Made by a program: the position numbers and the translations under genes
From: a virus
Virus record (IMG/VR): IMGVR_UViG_3300017987_000293
Coordinates: 1-28,060 of that record
Reading direction: 5' to 3' (one strand)
Length of the DNA: 28,060 nt
In this document: positions 20,681 to 27,499 of the stretch, piece after piece
Layout of the letters: every line of letters starts with the position of its first letter
Position numbering within the stretch: position 1 is the stretch's first letter
Notes under the pieces: model-generated
Database searches by the model: none
Seen by the model: only the letters and a program-made list of their open reading frames with translations
Told to the model about the DNA's origin: nothing

Positions 20681-22630
20681 TCACGCACCGTCATTGAGCT
20701 GCAGCGGCCGCCAGTCGATAACTTTGGCGCCCAGATCATAACGCACTTTCATTTTCATGCCGTCGACATCAAAGATCTCTTCGGAGTCGATGACCGGACC
20801 TTCTTCGCCCTGGAGTCTTGCCAGCTCGATGATGTCGGTCTGGTCGGCACTGGCGGCAAGATAGTGCGCGGTGATCGAAGTATCGTCAAGCCGCGGCTCA
20901 GCGATCGGAGTGACCCTGCCAGCGAAGAAATTCTCGTTTCCGACTTCGGTCGGCTGTGTGGCGGCGACCAGTTTATAAGCGGTCACCTGCAGGGCCACCG
21001 GGACGATCAGAAAAGCCGGCATGATGTCGATCTTCGCGCCGTCGACACCGGTCTGTTTTCTCATCGCTGCCCACATGGCAGTCAGGGTATCTTCAGCCAG
21101 GGCAGAGGCGCCAGTGCCGATATTGAGGTTTCCATGGTCCGCATGGAAGAGATCGGTGCCGTCGCCCATGGCAGCATTGGCGGTGAGCTGCGCCCAGACC
21201 AAATCGGCCTCGAGGTCAGCTGCACGGCGGCCGAATAGTTCCGGCTGACGCATGAAAGCGTTCAGATCATCATTGACCAGCATTTTCCTGGAAAACGTAA
21301 TGCGCTTTCCGTAGGTTTTCAGGTTGTATTCTTCCTTGGCTTCCCCGATCGTGCCTTCGGGAAACTCCCCGGAATCGCCCATTTCTTCGAGTGACTCACC
21401 TTCTCCCAGCTGCGTGCGCTGCACGGTCTTGAAATCGGGCACGCTCACCTGACGGGTGATCGGCTCCCAGGTCCGCGGCGCGCGCTCGTAAGCATCGCGC
21501 AGCGTCTTGTTTGCGACGTTCGCCAGGATATAAGGGAAGTCGCTGGTGGAGTGCGAGCCGGCGCGCAGGACCATCTTTGCAATCTCGTTGCGCGACATTC
21601 CGCGGGTGCGAACGCCAGCGGCCTCGAGACAATCGCGCGCCATGTCGATCATGGACAGGCCGCGGAATTCCCGACCGACGTCGGTCAGTTTATGGGCCTT
21701 GCTGTTCGAGCGATGCAAAATGGCGTTTTCCATCCCGCTTCGAATCGTGTCGCGCTGGTCTCTGGTGACCGCGACGTTCTGGCTTGAGGTCTGACCCTTG
21801 TCCTGGTCATCCTTTGCCATCTCGTCGATGACGAGTTTTCTGACCTCGTCGATCTTCTTGCCTTCTGCGATCCACTCGTCAGCGCGCTTTGCGTCAAGGC
21901 CGGCCTTTGACACAGTGTCGCGGATTTCTGCGGCGCGGGTGCGCTCGGCTTCGATGGCCTCAGCGCGCACCTTGTCAACGTCGACCTGCTCGGGTGCAGG
22001 CGCTTGCTGGCCTTCAGTCTTGTTTTCAGTCGTCATGTCTTCTTCCTTTCTTTCAATGATTTCACATTCATAGAAATCGCTATCTTCCCTTGCCTGCGCG
22101 CCTGCGTCGGCAGGAATAGGAACAGGTGATATTTCAACCGGCTCCCAGTCAGTGACCAGAAAGTGCCGGGTGCCGTCTTCGAGCGGTTTCTGCTCTTCGA
22201 CTTTGTAGACCTTGTAGCCTACGGAAACGCTGGACAGCGTGCCGCGTGCGAATTTGCGAAAGACAGCTTCGGCCTTGCCGACTTCGCCTTCTTTCGCGTC
22301 CTGCTGGTCGTCGTCAAAGCGCATAGTGGCCAGACCTACGCCGTTCTTGATCTTCGCCGACCCGCGAACGACCGAGCCGATCACGTCTTCGAGACTGTAG
22401 CGGCGATGAGCGTTGAGCACGGGTGCGCCGCCATTGAGCCGGTCAAGGCGCACATGGGAGCGCTTCATTGACAGCTCTTCGATGAATTCACCCTCAAACC
22501 AGGTTGCGCGTCTGACCTGGGCGCCCGTGGAAAAGGTGACATCGATAGTCCGCTTGTCGACATCCAGCGAAGACGGCGCCGTCGAAAACGCCCTCGACTG
22601 CAGACCCAAACTCATCTTTCTCGTTTCCAT
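20681..22630 (-). CDS. Prohead protease / major capsid protein fusion
   Basis: A 649-residue fusion of two usually separate head genes. Residues 1 to about 175 are an HK97-type (S78) prohead protease, with VLNAHRRYS placing catalytic H75 and TLSSVSVGYKV placing catalytic S136. Residues about 199-300 are charged and helical (VRAEAIEAERTRAAEIRDTV) and probably act as scaffold. The rest is an HK97-fold capsid protein (TWEPITRQVSVPDFKTVQRT, YGKRITFSRKMLVNDDLNAF, GRRAADLEADLVWAQLTANA). Start 22630 was preferred over 22654 because it follows the portal stop by one base and has a GAGGGAGAG site. Such fusions are known in other phages. An internal start at residue 199 is possible. Confidence 0.92.
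   Translation of the reverse strand: METRKMSLGLQSRAFSTAPSSLDVDKRTIDVTFSTGAQVRRATWFEGEFIEELSMKRSHVRLDRLNGGAPVLNAHRRYSLEDVIGSVVRGSAKIKNGVGLATMRFDDDQQDAKEGEVGKAEAVFRKFARGTLSSVSVGYKVYKVEEQKPLEDGTRHFLVTDWEPVEISPVPIPADAGAQAREDSDFYECEIIERKEEDMTTENKTEGQQAPAPEQVDVDKVRAEAIEAERTRAAEIRDTVSKAGLDAKRADEWIAEGKKIDEVRKLVIDEMAKDDQDKGQTSSQNVAVTRDQRDTIRSGMENAILHRSNSKAHKLTDVGREFRGLSMIDMARDCLEAAGVRTRGMSRNEIAKMVLRAGSHSTSDFPYILANVANKTLRDAYERAPRTWEPITRQVSVPDFKTVQRTQLGEGESLEEMGDSGEFPEGTIGEAKEEYNLKTYGKRITFSRKMLVNDDLNAFMRQPELFGRRAADLEADLVWAQLTANAAMGDGTDLFHADHGNLNIGTGASALAEDTLTAMWAAMRKQTGVDGAKIDIMPAFLIVPVALQVTAYKLVAATQPTEVGNENFFAGRVTPIAEPRLDDTSITAHYLAASADQTDIIELARLQGEEGPVIDSEEIFDVDGMKMKVRYDLGAKVIDWRPLQLNDGA
22034..22054 (-). 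promoter_or_regulatory. Internal ribosome-binding site and start within the protease-capsid fusion
   Basis: Just after the protease domain the coding strand reads GAAAGAAAGGAAGAAGACATG. The AAGGAAG core sits about 7 bases before an in-frame ATG (residue 199 of the fusion; MTTENKTEGQQ). Initiation here would make a 451-residue scaffold plus capsid protein lacking the protease, as lambda does with nested C/Nu3 starts. Purine-rich codons for Glu/Lys could create this by chance. Confidence 0.5.
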
Positions 22631-22631
22631 A

Positions 22632-24095
22632 TCACTCTCCCTCTGTGAAATCATCTTCCTGCGCTTTGCCGGCCGCGTTCACCTTGCGCGGATCGCTGTC
22701 AAGGACAAGATCCAGCCGGTCGATCGTTTCGTTATCGGCCTTGATTTTTGCGAAGTGGTCATCCGGATGACTGCCGCCCTCTCGGATGACATCAGACAGC
22801 GTCTCGATGCCGCCGCGGATTGCTTTGATCTTTGCCGGGATTTCCTTTGTCGGATCAATCATCTGGCGCTTTGGCGCGGACCAGTGGGCGGTCAGGTCAT
22901 CGGCCGTCTGCCCCAGGATCGCAGCTGTGTTTTTGAACCACTGAAAAATCGGATCGTTCATAAGCGGGTTGAGCACATGCACGCGCCAGCTGTCGATATT
23001 GCGCCCGAATTCAAGCCAGCCCATGCGAGCAGACGAGAAATTAACTTTCGACAGATCACCGGCAAGGGTTTCATATGACACGCCCAGGCCGACCGATATT
23101 GCACGCAGCACGGTGGCGGTATAGTTGTCATATTCTTCGCCTGCCCCTGGCGGGGACGCGAAGTGAACCGTCTTCCCGGGTGGCAGGATCTCGATCTGAC
23201 CGGGCTCAACTTTCTCGCCGAGCTCTTCTTTCTGGGTGTCAGTCAGCGGAGTTTCAGGCGCCTCGATGTCGGATATGAACACCGAAAAGCAGGCCGCTAT
23301 TTTCTGGCGCACCAGCTGAGCGTCTTCGTATTCATCGAAATCACGCAGGCGGATCATGACCGGAGCCAGCCAGGGGACTCCGCGGATTTGTCCTGGTCGG
23401 TCAATGCGGAATATGTGCAGGATGTCTTCGGCGGGAATTCGGACGGTCTCAAGGGAAGTGAACCCGCGCGGTGAGTTTATCCCTGTGTTTCCGGGATGAT
23501 CCTTGTAAAGATGATAGGCCACCCGGCGACCCTGGGCGTCGAATTCGATACCCTGGATCACCCGGTTTTCGCCAAACTGCGTCACGGTCGTTGAGATGAA
23601 ATCTGACTCGAGCACCTGCAGGCGCAGCGGGAATTCATCAGTCGTGCGCCAGCGCCGAATCAGGACTTCGCCGGATTCGACGACCGAGCGCTTGACCAGG
23701 CGCTGCATACTATAAATGTTATGAACGCCATCATAGTCAATATTTGGAGTCTCTGCCCAGGACTTCCACAGCTGCCGAGCACTGTCAGCGGCCGCGGGAG
23801 TCGCACTTGAAAAGTGCGGCATGATTCCTTTGCCGACCACATTCGTGGCAATCAGCGCGATGCCGCGGGCAGCGTAAGGGTTGTTTCTGACCAGATCGCG
23901 CGAGCGATTTCGAAGGATCGGCAGCGCAGCCGAGATCTCAGAGATAGCAGAAGAGCTGCCAGTCTTCCAGCCGACGGTGCGCCTGCTCTTTGCCGCGCCT
24001 TCATATTTTCTGATTTCAGAGATGGCCGCACGATAGCGGGCACGCTTGAACTGAGCGGCCGGTGAAAACCAGCCGATGCACTTATCAATCCACAT
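22632..24095 (-). CDS. Portal protein, lambda gpB-like
   Basis: A 487-residue portal of the lambda gpB family (Phage_portal_2; lambda gpB 533). It forms the dodecameric ring through which DNA is packaged and ejected, and to which the terminase and connector bind. Visible marks are RNNPYAARGIALIATNVVGK near residues 70-89, the ESGEVLIRRW strand, the GLGVSYETLAGDLSKVNFSS segment (near 335) and the SARMGWLEFGRNIDSW helix. The start codon overlaps the gpW stop (TAATG). The last residues (DDFTEGE) lie next to the start of the protease-capsid gene. Confidence 0.93.
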   Translation of the reverse strand: MWIDKCIGWFSPAAQFKRARYRAAISEIRKYEGAAKSRRTVGWKTGSSSAISEISAALPILRNRSRDLVRNNPYAARGIALIATNVVGKGIMPHFSSATPAAADSARQLWKSWAETPNIDYDGVHNIYSMQRLVKRSVVESGEVLIRRWRTTDEFPLRLQVLESDFISTTVTQFGENRVIQGIEFDAQGRRVAYHLYKDHPGNTGINSPRGFTSLETVRIPAEDILHIFRIDRPGQIRGVPWLAPVMIRLRDFDEYEDAQLVRQKIAACFSVFISDIEAPETPLTDTQKEELGEKVEPGQIEILPPGKTVHFASPPGAGEEYDNYTATVLRAISVGLGVSYETLAGDLSKVNFSSARMGWLEFGRNIDSWRVHVLNPLMNDPIFQWFKNTAAILGQTADDLTAHWSAPKRQMIDPTKEIPAKIKAIRGGIETLSDVIREGGSHPDDHFAKIKADNETIDRLDLVLDSDPRKVNAAGKAQEDDFTEGE

Positions 24096-24298
24096 TACAG
24101 ACCCTTATCGTGCTTTGCTAGCAGGCGCACACCGCGGCCGGTCAGGCCGAGCGCCTGGCGCATGCGGTCGCGGATCGCCATCATTTCGCTGAGCGATCGA
24201 TACCAGATTTCCTTGTCGGTGTATTTGACTCTGAGTGTCCCGGATGCGATTGCGCTTTCAAGTGCTTCGAGGTCAGCTTGCGTCCAGGTCGTTGTCAT
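24095..24298 (-). CDS. Head-tail joining protein, lambda gpW-like
   Basis: A 67-residue protein (lambda gpW 68). ATG 24298 was chosen because it overlaps the terminase stop as TAATG and gives the family length; a GTG nine bases upstream is possible. The sequence WTQADLEALESAIASGTLRV, then KYTDKEIWYRSLSEMMAIRD, matches the gpW fold: helix, beta-hairpin with an aromatic Trp-Tyr pair, and helix. It seals the portal after packaging and provides the platform for the connector. Confidence 0.85.
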   Translation of the reverse strand: MTTTWTQADLEALESAIASGTLRVKYTDKEIWYRSLSEMMAIRDRMRQALGLTGRGVRLLAKHDKGL

Positions 24299-27200
24299 TA
24301 AAGCCACCCACTGCGCCTGCGCCTTATAGGCGGCGCTCGTTGAGTTGAGTCTGCTTGCTTGCTTTCAATTGTAACATTCTTTCCAGCAATGTCATCCCAG
24401 TGCTTGTCGGTGAAGCGGTCGATCCCGATGACTGCTGCGGCTGCCCTGGCGTAAATGCGACAATCGAGCGCTTCGTTTCTGTCGCGGACTTTCTGCCATT
24501 CCGGTCTCTTGTAGCCTTTCACGAATCTAACGATAACCGCTTCCGCCGTCAACTGCTTGAAGAAGTCTTCGCCGTATTCAGGGAAGTGACAATACCCCGG
24601 CGGATCTTCTTCACCTTCGCCGGCCTTGTCCTGACGCAGCCAGCCATAGAGCTCTGTCTTCAACAGATTCACGCCGACGGTCCAGACTTTCGTGCCTTTT
24701 TTTATAGTGCGGCCGCCGCGTGTCACGTCCACAGCCTTCGGCTGTGATATCGTCGTGGTCTGTCGATCACTGCCTTTTATCGGCACTATTTGAGTCGGAC
24801 TGAATTTTCTGCAATAATCATAAACCGTCTGAGTGGCATATCCGGAGTCGACCGCAAAGAGTCGGACCGAAAGGCCGCGACGTTCATCGTCAATGAGCGG
24901 CCAGGTTTCCGACATCATCTTAGTCAGTTCGTTCCAAGGTCCGACCGTATTCGTCTTTCCAAGAATCACGCGATATTCGATTGACCATGTGACTTTGTTT
25001 CTTCCCCACCCGACCACTTCGACCTCAAGGCGATCTTCTTGCACGTCGACGCCGGCAGTCAGGAAGAAGACGCCCTTTGGGATTTTCCCGACCGGATACT
25101 GCTCGCGCCGCTCATAAAGTCGGTGCCAGTCGGGGACTTCAGTCTTTTCTTTCCAGGTCTCGCCCAGTGCGGTGTTCACAAACGAGCGCAGGAGCTCTGG
25201 AATCTTACAGGCACGCAGCCAGTCTTCGGCCATCTCTTCCCACGAATACCAGCCGACCGGTGAATACAGGGCATTTAGGTGAAAGCCAGCGATGTCGGAC
25301 TCTGCGGTCTTTACCCAGCGACCGGCTTTTAACATTTTAGTTTTCATCCAGTTTTTGATATGACCAGCACAGGACTCGCACTCATACCAGGCCGTCTTCG
25401 GCCGGTCTTTATGCCACTTCAGATTTTTCCAGACCAGTCTTTGATAGTGTCCGCACAGCGGACAGGGCACATGAAAATATCGCTTATCGCTCAGCTCAAA
25501 GAGCCTGGCGATCTTCGATCGGTCTTCAAGCGTCGGTGTGCTGGCATAGAATGTCTTGCGCCGCGTAAACGTGCGCTGGCGGGCGCGGGCCAGCTCGAGC
25601 GGCGATCCCTCGTTGTCGACGTCCTCGGGATACGCGTCAATTTCATCAGGGAAAACGAACCTGGCCGGCATCGACCTCAAGCCGACTGCTGAATTCGCAC
25701 CGGTCATCAGCAGGGTGCCGCCGATGAAATCTTTCTGCAGCACGGTGTTGCCGCTGTCGCGGCTTCGCTTTGATTTGACTTTCTCACTCAGGTCCGGGCA
25801 ATCTTCAATCATCGGGTCGATGCGTTGCTTGCTGTAGCGCTTTGCCAGTTCGACAGTGGGCTGAATTGCCAGAATGGGCGCCGGGCTGTGATCGATCAGA
25901 TAGCCGATCCAGTTGTTTCCCGCTTCGGTGTTATGCGTCGGGATCAGTTCGTTTCCGACCAGAAATAGATGATCGTCCGAATCGACAGCCAGACATTTCG
26001 TCTGAAACGGCGCCACTTTCTCGACTTTCTTTATTCTTCTGTTGAGGACTTCAGACTGACGTCTCGGGATTTTTTGCCTGGCTGATTTTCTTTTCACATT
26101 GAAGACACGCAGACCAGTGGGGCGGAAATGAACGAGATGGACATCTTGAATTCCCCAACCACTCTTCTGTTCTTCAGCTGGCTTTGTCCTGATCGACGCA
26201 CGCATTCCCAGCGAACATACTAAGTGCTGAACCTGCTCGGCCAGCTGTCTGTTTGTGTTGCTGAATTCACAAAGGCCGTGCTTTGCGCAATACCCGTCAG
26301 TATCCATCAGCCCGCGGAGCAGTGATAGTCGTTGATCGAATGATGCTCTCAGATATTCATCAGGAATGTGCTTATTTCTATGTACGCCGATTTCTCTTAA
26401 AACGGTCCCGAATTTTTTCTTGCTTGGCAGGGTTTTCGTCCCGAACCTTGAATCATATGATCTTCGTCTATGACACTCCCGACAACGTCCATGGATCGTC
26501 CCGACTTCGGCCAGGTTGTGACCTCTGAAGCACTGGCCATTGCTGTGTCCGATTGGATCTATGACAATTTCCAAAACGGAATCATATCTGCGTTCTGTGT
26601 CTTCGATAGCTACCAGGTGCCCGCCGACTTTTATGTGATGCGCGATTTCTTCGGCGTCGTCACGAAAAACAGTCAGTCTGTTTGAGTTTCTGTTTCCGTC
26701 GCCCAGCCAGGCGCCGAGTGCATATGGTGCTATCTCAAATTCTTTGGCGCTGCATTTCAGATAGCTGGCAATCCCGATCCTGTATCTGTTTCGATTGCCT
26801 GACTTGTATGCTTTAAAGATGTCAGCTGTGCTCAAAGTCTTCTCAGTGAACCTGCCCCTGAAACTATCTTCTTCAATAGTCCACAGATGCCTTCCATCGC
26901 ATCTCACTGTAGATCTGTCGTCGAACGTCACCAGATAGCATTCATCGTTTTCAAAGATTTCAGAAACACCGATGACTCGTTTCGCTTCACCGCTGACACC
27001 GAAAACTTCATCGCCTTCTTTTATTTCGCCGATCGTTTTGAATCCAACTGGTGTCGCGACCTTTATGTCGAGCGCCAAAGGCGCGCCGATCTGCGAGCAT
27101 TTTTGAAAGACAATCTCTTTCGTCGGATCGTGCGCACTCAAAACGTCCATGATCTCTTTCATATATGGAGTGCGACTGGTGCGGTATCTGCCAGGTTCGG

Positions 27201-27321
27201 CACTGGCGCGCGTTGAGAGGTATCGATACTTGTCCGCCCATTCGCTGACGGTGAGCCGGTCTGGCGGCTTCAGTTCACGAAGGAAAACTGCAGTGCTGTT
27301 AAAGCGATGTTCACTCATCAA
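24298..27321 (-). CDS. Terminase large subunit (lambda gpA-like) with in-frame intein
   Basis: A 1007-residue precursor. Removing residues 81-464 leaves a 623-residue GpA-type terminase (lambda gpA 641), the ATPase-nuclease that cuts concatemeric DNA and drives it into the prohead. Host parts seen: the Walker A-like loop, rebuilt on splicing as QIGATEAGNNW; Walker B in MPARFVFPDEIDAYPED (D559, E560); a zinc ribbon with C620, C623, C648 and C651; and nuclease acidic residues D758 (AGVDVQEDRLEV), D825 (FAVDSGYAT) and D953 (NEALDCRIYARA). The intein interrupts the ATP-binding loop, so terminase activity should depend on splicing. The start MMSEH lies within the end of the small membrane gene. 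Confidence 0.93.
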   Translation of the reverse strand: MMSEHRFNSTAVFLRELKPPDRLTVSEWADKYRYLSTRASAEPGRYRTSRTPYMKEIMDVLSAHDPTKEIVFQKCSQIGAPLALDIKVATPVGFKTIGEIKEGDEVFGVSGEAKRVIGVSEIFENDECYLVTFDDRSTVRCDGRHLWTIEEDSFRGRFTEKTLSTADIFKAYKSGNRNRYRIGIASYLKCSAKEFEIAPYALGAWLGDGNRNSNRLTVFRDDAEEIAHHIKVGGHLVAIEDTERRYDSVLEIVIDPIGHSNGQCFRGHNLAEVGTIHGRCRECHRRRSYDSRFGTKTLPSKKKFGTVLREIGVHRNKHIPDEYLRASFDQRLSLLRGLMDTDGYCAKHGLCEFSNTNRQLAEQVQHLVCSLGMRASIRTKPAEEQKSGWGIQDVHLVHFRPTGLRVFNVKRKSARQKIPRRQSEVLNRRIKKVEKVAPFQTKCLAVDSDDHLFLVGNELIPTHNTEAGNNWIGYLIDHSPAPILAIQPTVELAKRYSKQRIDPMIEDCPDLSEKVKSKRSRDSGNTVLQKDFIGGTLLMTGANSAVGLRSMPARFVFPDEIDAYPEDVDNEGSPLELARARQRTFTRRKTFYASTPTLEDRSKIARLFELSDKRYFHVPCPLCGHYQRLVWKNLKWHKDRPKTAWYECESCAGHIKNWMKTKMLKAGRWVKTAESDIAGFHLNALYSPVGWYSWEEMAEDWLRACKIPELLRSFVNTALGETWKEKTEVPDWHRLYERREQYPVGKIPKGVFFLTAGVDVQEDRLEVEVVGWGRNKVTWSIEYRVILGKTNTVGPWNELTKMMSETWPLIDDERRGLSVRLFAVDSGYATQTVYDYCRKFSPTQIVPIKGSDRQTTTISQPKAVDVTRGGRTIKKGTKVWTVGVNLLKTELYGWLRQDKAGEGEEDPPGYCHFPEYGEDFFKQLTAEAVIVRFVKGYKRPEWQKVRDRNEALDCRIYARAAAAVIGIDRFTDKHWDDIAGKNVTIESKQADSTQRAPPIRRRRSGWL
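25930..27081 (-). mobile_element. Class 3 intein with LAGLIDADG homing endonuclease, in the terminase gene
   Basis: A 384-residue intein, residues P81 to N464 of the precursor (N-terminal Ala at 80 is an alternative boundary). It lacks a Cys or Ser at position 1 but has the class 3 Trp-Cys-Thr signature: W147 in block B (GRHLWTI, with His145 at B10), C443 in block F (TKCLAVDSDDHLFLVG) and T462 in block G (PTHN followed by Thr+1). In class 3 inteins the block F Cys starts splicing. Endonuclease motifs ALGAWLGDGN (acidic D208) and LLRGLMDTDGYC (acidic D342) are intact, so homing activity is predicted. A Cys/His cluster lies between them. DNA here appears more AT-rich than the surrounding terminase gene. 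Confidence 0.93.
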
Positions 27322-27499
27322 CTACCTTGGAGCCCAGCAGAATGCACCAGGCGAGCAGTCCGCTGACCGAGACAACACCGGTCACGATCATCGCCGCTGC
27401 CCACCAGACTTCCATTCCCAGAAACTGGTGCTTTGCCGCCCAGGCCGCTGCGCAGCTGATGACTGACATTGCGATCGTGGCAAAGAGAAGTTTGTTCAT
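27311..27499 (-). CDS. Small membrane protein between terminase genes
   Basis: A 62-residue protein with two hydrophobic segments: an N-terminal one (LLFATIAMSVISCAAAWAA) that could be a signal or a first helix, and a second (AAAMIVTGVVSVSGLLAWCI) spanning the membrane. The start overlaps the small terminase stop (ATGA) and its end overlaps the terminase start, so it is clearly translated with them. No family is recognised. It may be an early-expressed membrane protein placed here by chance, or a superinfection or lysis accessory factor. Confidence 0.6.
   Translation of the reverse strand: MNKLLFATIAMSVISCAAAWAAKHQFLGMEVWWAAAMIVTGVVSVSGLLAWCILLGSKVVDE

Follow-up and report, generated by a model that had tools for sequence, protein, structure and literature searches.

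Within a 28,060-nucleotide stretch of viral DNA (IMG/VR record IMGVR_UViG_3300017987_000293, positions 1 to 28,060; hereafter the window), the gene for a gpA-type terminase large subunit is interrupted at a fixed site by 384 residues that we read, with a probability of about 0.95, as a full-length and probably active class 3 intein carrying a LAGLIDADG homing endonuclease, its capacity to splice and to cut DNA being predicted from sequence. The host protein is a GpA terminase large subunit, in which both the GpA ATPase domain (PF05876, 1e-86) and the GpA nuclease domain (PF20454, 9e-93) were found with Pfam; its minus-strand frame, read from TTG, is open throughout its 1007 codons (27321..24298), as an earlier note on this DNA had described. 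The ATG at 27318, which has AGG six bases upstream, is the more likely start over the alternative TTG at 27321, and from this ATG the precursor would have 1006 aa and the product without the insert 622 aa; the 623 residues predicted in the earlier note are what deletion of the insert from the 1007-codon frame leaves, and thus apply to the TTG start and not to the likelier ATG. A short membrane-protein-like frame (window 27310-27499, minus strand) separates the small terminase gene from the large one, and its end overlaps the start of the latter. The coordinates of the gene, the intein, and its motifs are collected in Table 1.

Table 1. Coordinates in the window of the terminase gene, the intein, and the motifs discussed in the text
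Feature	Position	Strand	Remark
Intein-containing precursor of the gpA-type terminase large subunit	24298..27321	-	1007 codons from TTG
N-extein, residues 1-80, ending ...QKCSQIGA	27082..27321	-	GpA_ATPase profile 1-41
Class 3 intein, 384 aa, PLALDIK...IPTHN	25930..27081	-	
First intein residue, Pro, in place of a Ser/Cys nucleophile	27079..27081	-	Pro in 43/50, Ala in 7/50 same-site inteins
Block B His-Leu-Trp: His65 (B10) and Trp67 (B12) of the intein	26881..26889	-	H-x-W in 50/50
LAGLIDADG motif 1 region (LGDGNR), catalytic Asp retained	26689..26706	-	
Zn-knuckle-like insert, C-x2-G-H...C-x2-C-H, between both LAGLIDADG motifs	26470..26532	-	Zn binding putative
LAGLIDADG motif 2 region (DTDGYC), catalytic Asp retained; Pfam LAGLIDADG_3 match	26287..26304	-	
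Block F Cys363 of the intein (F4; precursor Cys443), expected branch-point nucleophile	25993..25995	-	50/50
Block G Thr-His-Asn end of the intein	25930..25938	-	
+1 Thr (Thr465), second branch point; aligns with lambda gpA P-loop Ser83	25927..25929	-	Thr in 50/50
C-extein: remaining ATPase domain and GpA_nuclease domain, including stop codon	24298..25929	-	

The insert comprises precursor residues 81-464, between Ala80 and Thr465; it opens with PLALDIKVATPVGF and closes with NELIPTHN. It breaks the GpA_ATPase match at profile position 40, with profile positions 1-41 falling at 27204-27079, positions 40-247 at 25932-25315, and no match in between. An empty-site scan returned at least 120 stretches, and at least 118 open frames read Q-x-G-x-T-E-x-x-N-N-W with no insert and have A, G, K, F, or L immediately ahead of TE; these intein-free relatives are similar in length, their site is empty (G-x^T-E), and the best among them matches at 55% identity over 579 residues with the site uninterrupted. 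Because every one of these 118 frames has one residue between G and TE, Ala80 is a host residue, and because related genes with the intein and without it join in frame at that point, Pro81 is the first residue of the intein. Of the two candidates offered earlier for this residue, Pro or Ala, the first is thus upheld and the second is not, and the alignment with intein-free gpA-type terminases that had been proposed for fixing the junctions places them at Ala80^Pro81 and Asn464^Thr465, in agreement with the coordinates, the length, and the numbering of Cys443 and Asn464 given earlier. Three pairs of related gpA genes, one member with the intein and one without, differ by its precise presence or absence, with in-frame joining at the same point: L148 and L217 (89% DNA identity over 1.9 kb), L126 and L265 (85%), and L138 and L184 (85%). 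The third-position GC content of the intein is 0.50, against 0.60 and 0.64 in the flanks. That the 384 residues are instead a normal terminase domain might be suggested by the continuous frame and by PHROG families 15 and 36964, which store such sequences as terminase, but this reading is refuted by the empty sites, the intein-free homologues lacking exactly those residues, as well as by the gene pairs and by the resemblance of the insert to inteins in both sequence and fold, and its probability is practically nil.

The earlier placement of the insertion in a Walker A-like loop is borne out by alignment with lambda gpA, which puts the site between Tyr82 and Ser83 within KSARVGYS (76-83), a segment that we take to be lambda's variant Walker A; from this alignment, the +1 Thr replaces the P-loop hydroxyl residue (Ser83).

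The intein has no Ser or Cys at position 1, as fixed by the comparison with intein-free genes, and it possesses Trp67 (B12), Cys363 (F4), and Thr382 (G5), together with the block B His65, the His-Asn end, and the +1 Thr465, so that the full class 3 set reported in the earlier note is present. Class 3 inteins lack Ser/Cys1 and share the Trp-Cys-Thr set, which is stated to be exclusive to this class (PMC7664689). Among 50 complete same-site inteins that we compared, the window included, position 1 is Pro in 43 and Ala in seven; H-x-W, Cys F4, and Thr+1 are found in all 50, and the end reads THN in 49 and SHN in one. The best solved sequence relatives are the class 3 DnaB inteins 6bs8, 6rix, and 6riy (E 2e-13 to 4e-13), which match the N- and C-terminal parts; chance is excluded, since the insert matches solved class 3 inteins (2e-13) and the 50 same-site inteins keep the diagnostic residues. 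An AlphaFold model of the window intein, built from 46 aligned inteins (pLDDT 90.3, pTM 0.89), predicts a HINT splicing fold matching 6riy, 6bs8, and PI-SceI; a Foldseek search with this model ranked PI-SceI first (E 5e-22), with the class 3 inteins MchDnaB-1 and MsmDnaB lower (E about 1e-7). Assignment to class 1 or class 2, the first residue then being atypical, has in its favor that position 1 is neither Ser nor Cys, as in class 2, but it is highly improbable given that the Trp-Cys-Thr set is stated for class 3 only (PMC7664689), that the class 2 inteins known so far are orthologues of KlbA (PMC4031507), and that the solved inteins matching best by sequence belong to class 3.

Class 3 inteins follow a route in which Cys F4 attacks the N-junction first and the N-extein is then passed to the +1 residue (PMC4031507). 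Applied to the window, Cys443 of block F would attack the Ala80-Pro81 bond and the N-extein would be transferred to Thr465, after which Asn464 would cyclize with cleavage on the C side and an O-N shift would join Ala80 to Thr465. Splicing would in this way restore the variant Walker A loop (KCSQIGA^T) in a terminase of 622-623 residues, and since the intein interrupts the P-loop, packaging would depend on splicing. The endonuclease, for its part, would cleave gpA genes that lack the intein, at this same conserved loop, and repair would copy the intein in. The intein of Mycobacterium phage Violet gp10 also starts with Pro, which suggests that Pro1 is no bar to splicing, although the TerL1-c intein that was assayed is that of Bethlehem gp10.

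To map the distribution of the insertion, IMG/VR was searched with a degenerate pattern for HN^TE..NNW, which 73 contigs match, with the junction in an open frame in 71 of them; with the window (L001 and L002) and an Endozoicomonas plasmid record counted, the loci with the junction in an open frame number 74. The latter record (Endozoicomonas sp. Mp262, CP092490, L104) is a linear 39.5-kb sequence labeled as a plasmid, and in it the reading frame is lost some 18 residues past the intein (L104:4119-4155), by sequencing error or decay. Two inteins seem to share a single frame at L027:1476-4268, one of them having LAGLIDADG at residues 290-349 and the other evident from a second splicing domain that spans residues 593-858. 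Of 50,697 isolated-phage records, a single one, that of Acidovorax phage ACF1, aligned along at least 80% of the window precursor, a search that distant cases may escape, and a single alignment was likewise obtained along at least 80% of the L130 precursor; a scan of genome contigs with the window intein found two distant inteins only. The gpA-branch inteins seem nearly absent from isolated phages. The same insertion in about 70 uncultivated viruses indicates that it is real, mobile, and familiar in kind.

The intein tree places 35 of 36 gpA inteins in one group and does not reject a single clade of all 36 (p 0.47); the same-site gpA inteins essentially constitute one lineage, which is scattered among terminases that lack an intein. 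On the host tree (101 gpA proteins), the presence of the intein needs 17 changes, 16 of them forced by well-supported (starred) branches, and these changes, counted without direction, fit the repeated gain and loss expected of a homing element. The window intein pairs with that of L158 (99/94), followed by L160 and L152; L158 is its nearest relative at 51% identity, so that its activity is extrapolated over some distance. A recent transfer of the window's own intein was considered and is unsupported, as the host-protein tree does not reject joint descent with L158 (p 0.38).

Two LAGLIDADG motifs with their acidic residues (LGDG and MDTDG; Pfam LAGLIDADG_3, 1.8e-9) look intact in the window intein. 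The Zn-knuckle-like stretch between them reads CFRGHNLAEVGTIHGRCRECH and may bind zinc; profile and Pfam searches matched it to no Pfam or PDB family, and PHROG gave a weak match to the HNH endonuclease family phrog_826 (E 0.0019), to be taken as a lead. The C-x2-G-H...C-x2-C motif recurs in six further same-site loci (L125, L152, L158, L160, L171, and L180) and in one Terminase_1 intein (L003), and is the one unusual feature of the gpA-type inteins, present in a few members. It is conceivable, if rather doubtful, that the gpA-type inteins are a class 3 lineage not yet described, site-specific and splicing at an X-Pro bond, and that in some members (the window, L158, L160, L152, L125, and L171) the LAGLIDADG domain contains a Zn-knuckle-like module, similar to those of phage HNH nucleases, that would alter DNA recognition or make splicing of the packaging motor metal- or redox-sensitive.

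In two same-site inteins (L117 and L135), the LAGLIDADG motif is degenerate and the splicing residues are intact, as if the endonuclease were decaying. Some same-site relatives have lost one such motif (L117, as well as L135 and others, which read LGNG), so that decay does occur in this lineage; this, together with the frameshift in the Endozoicomonas copy, lends some weight to the notion that the window intein no longer splices or homes and that the terminase is dead in a decaying prophage. This outcome is nonetheless improbable, for no stop interrupts the 1007 codons of the window gene, which retains all splicing residues and the Asp of each LAGLIDADG motif, and the adjoining head and tail genes are intact; an intein that still splices and homes remains the preferred reading.

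P-loop class 3 inteins in phage terminases of the Terminase_1 type have already been published, as have splicing and DNA cutting by mycobacteriophage terminase inteins including those of Bethlehem gp10 (TerL1-c), shown in the laboratory, and Baka gp6 (PMC5050341), and the novelty of the window intein is therefore modest. The mycobacteriophage TerL1-a and TerL1-b class 3 inteins share with it the terminase large subunit host, the P-loop insertion, and a homing endonuclease, but reside in the equivalent loop of another family (Terminase_1 rather than GpA), so that the window intein is not an allele of either, and TerL1-a is inserted between Lys and Thr, whereas the gpA variant Walker A has Ala or Gly in place of the Lys (PMC5050341). 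The TerL1-c intein of Violet gp10 resembles that of the window in its first residue (PLALNTEVPT...), THN^T end, and +1 Thr, with about 30% identity over the full length, and differs in its site, a poorly conserved helix in another terminase family. The mycobacterial class 3 DnaB inteins (PDB 6bs8, 6rix) have the same splicing domain, W-C-T set, and THN end, but are about 140 aa long, lack an endonuclease domain, and interrupt a helicase. Closer in host, ACF1 (MZ547449, L103) and the IMG/VR locus L061 have an intein at the equivalent P-loop position of a gpA-family terminase, yet with a canonical GK^T loop, Cys as the first residue (CLDVNT), and a host protein only about 23-25% identical. The Endozoicomonas intein and those of about 70 IMG/VR contigs agree with the window in gpA loop, junction, Pro or Ala at position 1, and class 3 set, at 26-51% identity, and most lack the Zn-knuckle-like insert. 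We found no literature joining intein, terminase, and gpA, and the gpA branch of terminase P-loop inteins seems undescribed in the literature searched, an earlier mention in Tori and Perler 2011 being possible.

The analysis adds the gpA (lambda-type) terminase family to the hosts of P-loop class 3 inteins, represented by one site-specific lineage that recurs in many uncultivated viruses and is nearly missing from isolated phages; automatic annotation would call the host genes plain 1000-residue terminases. For most readers, the window intein will be a clear yet ordinary example, and the pairs of related genes that differ by the intein offer ready material for homing and fitness tests.

Elsewhere the window holds contractile-tail phage genes (6222-24095, minus strand), among them a lambda-type portal, sheath, tube, gpP-like hub, baseplate J, and amidase. 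A single 657-aa frame at 20681-22654 (minus strand) fuses prohead protease and major capsid domains (PF04586, weak; PF25209, 6e-51). At positions 1-215, a tandem 12-base unit, GCCTGGGACGCT, is present in 18 copies (93% match) and translates in frame into Ala/Trp/Asp repeats at the truncated end of a gene.
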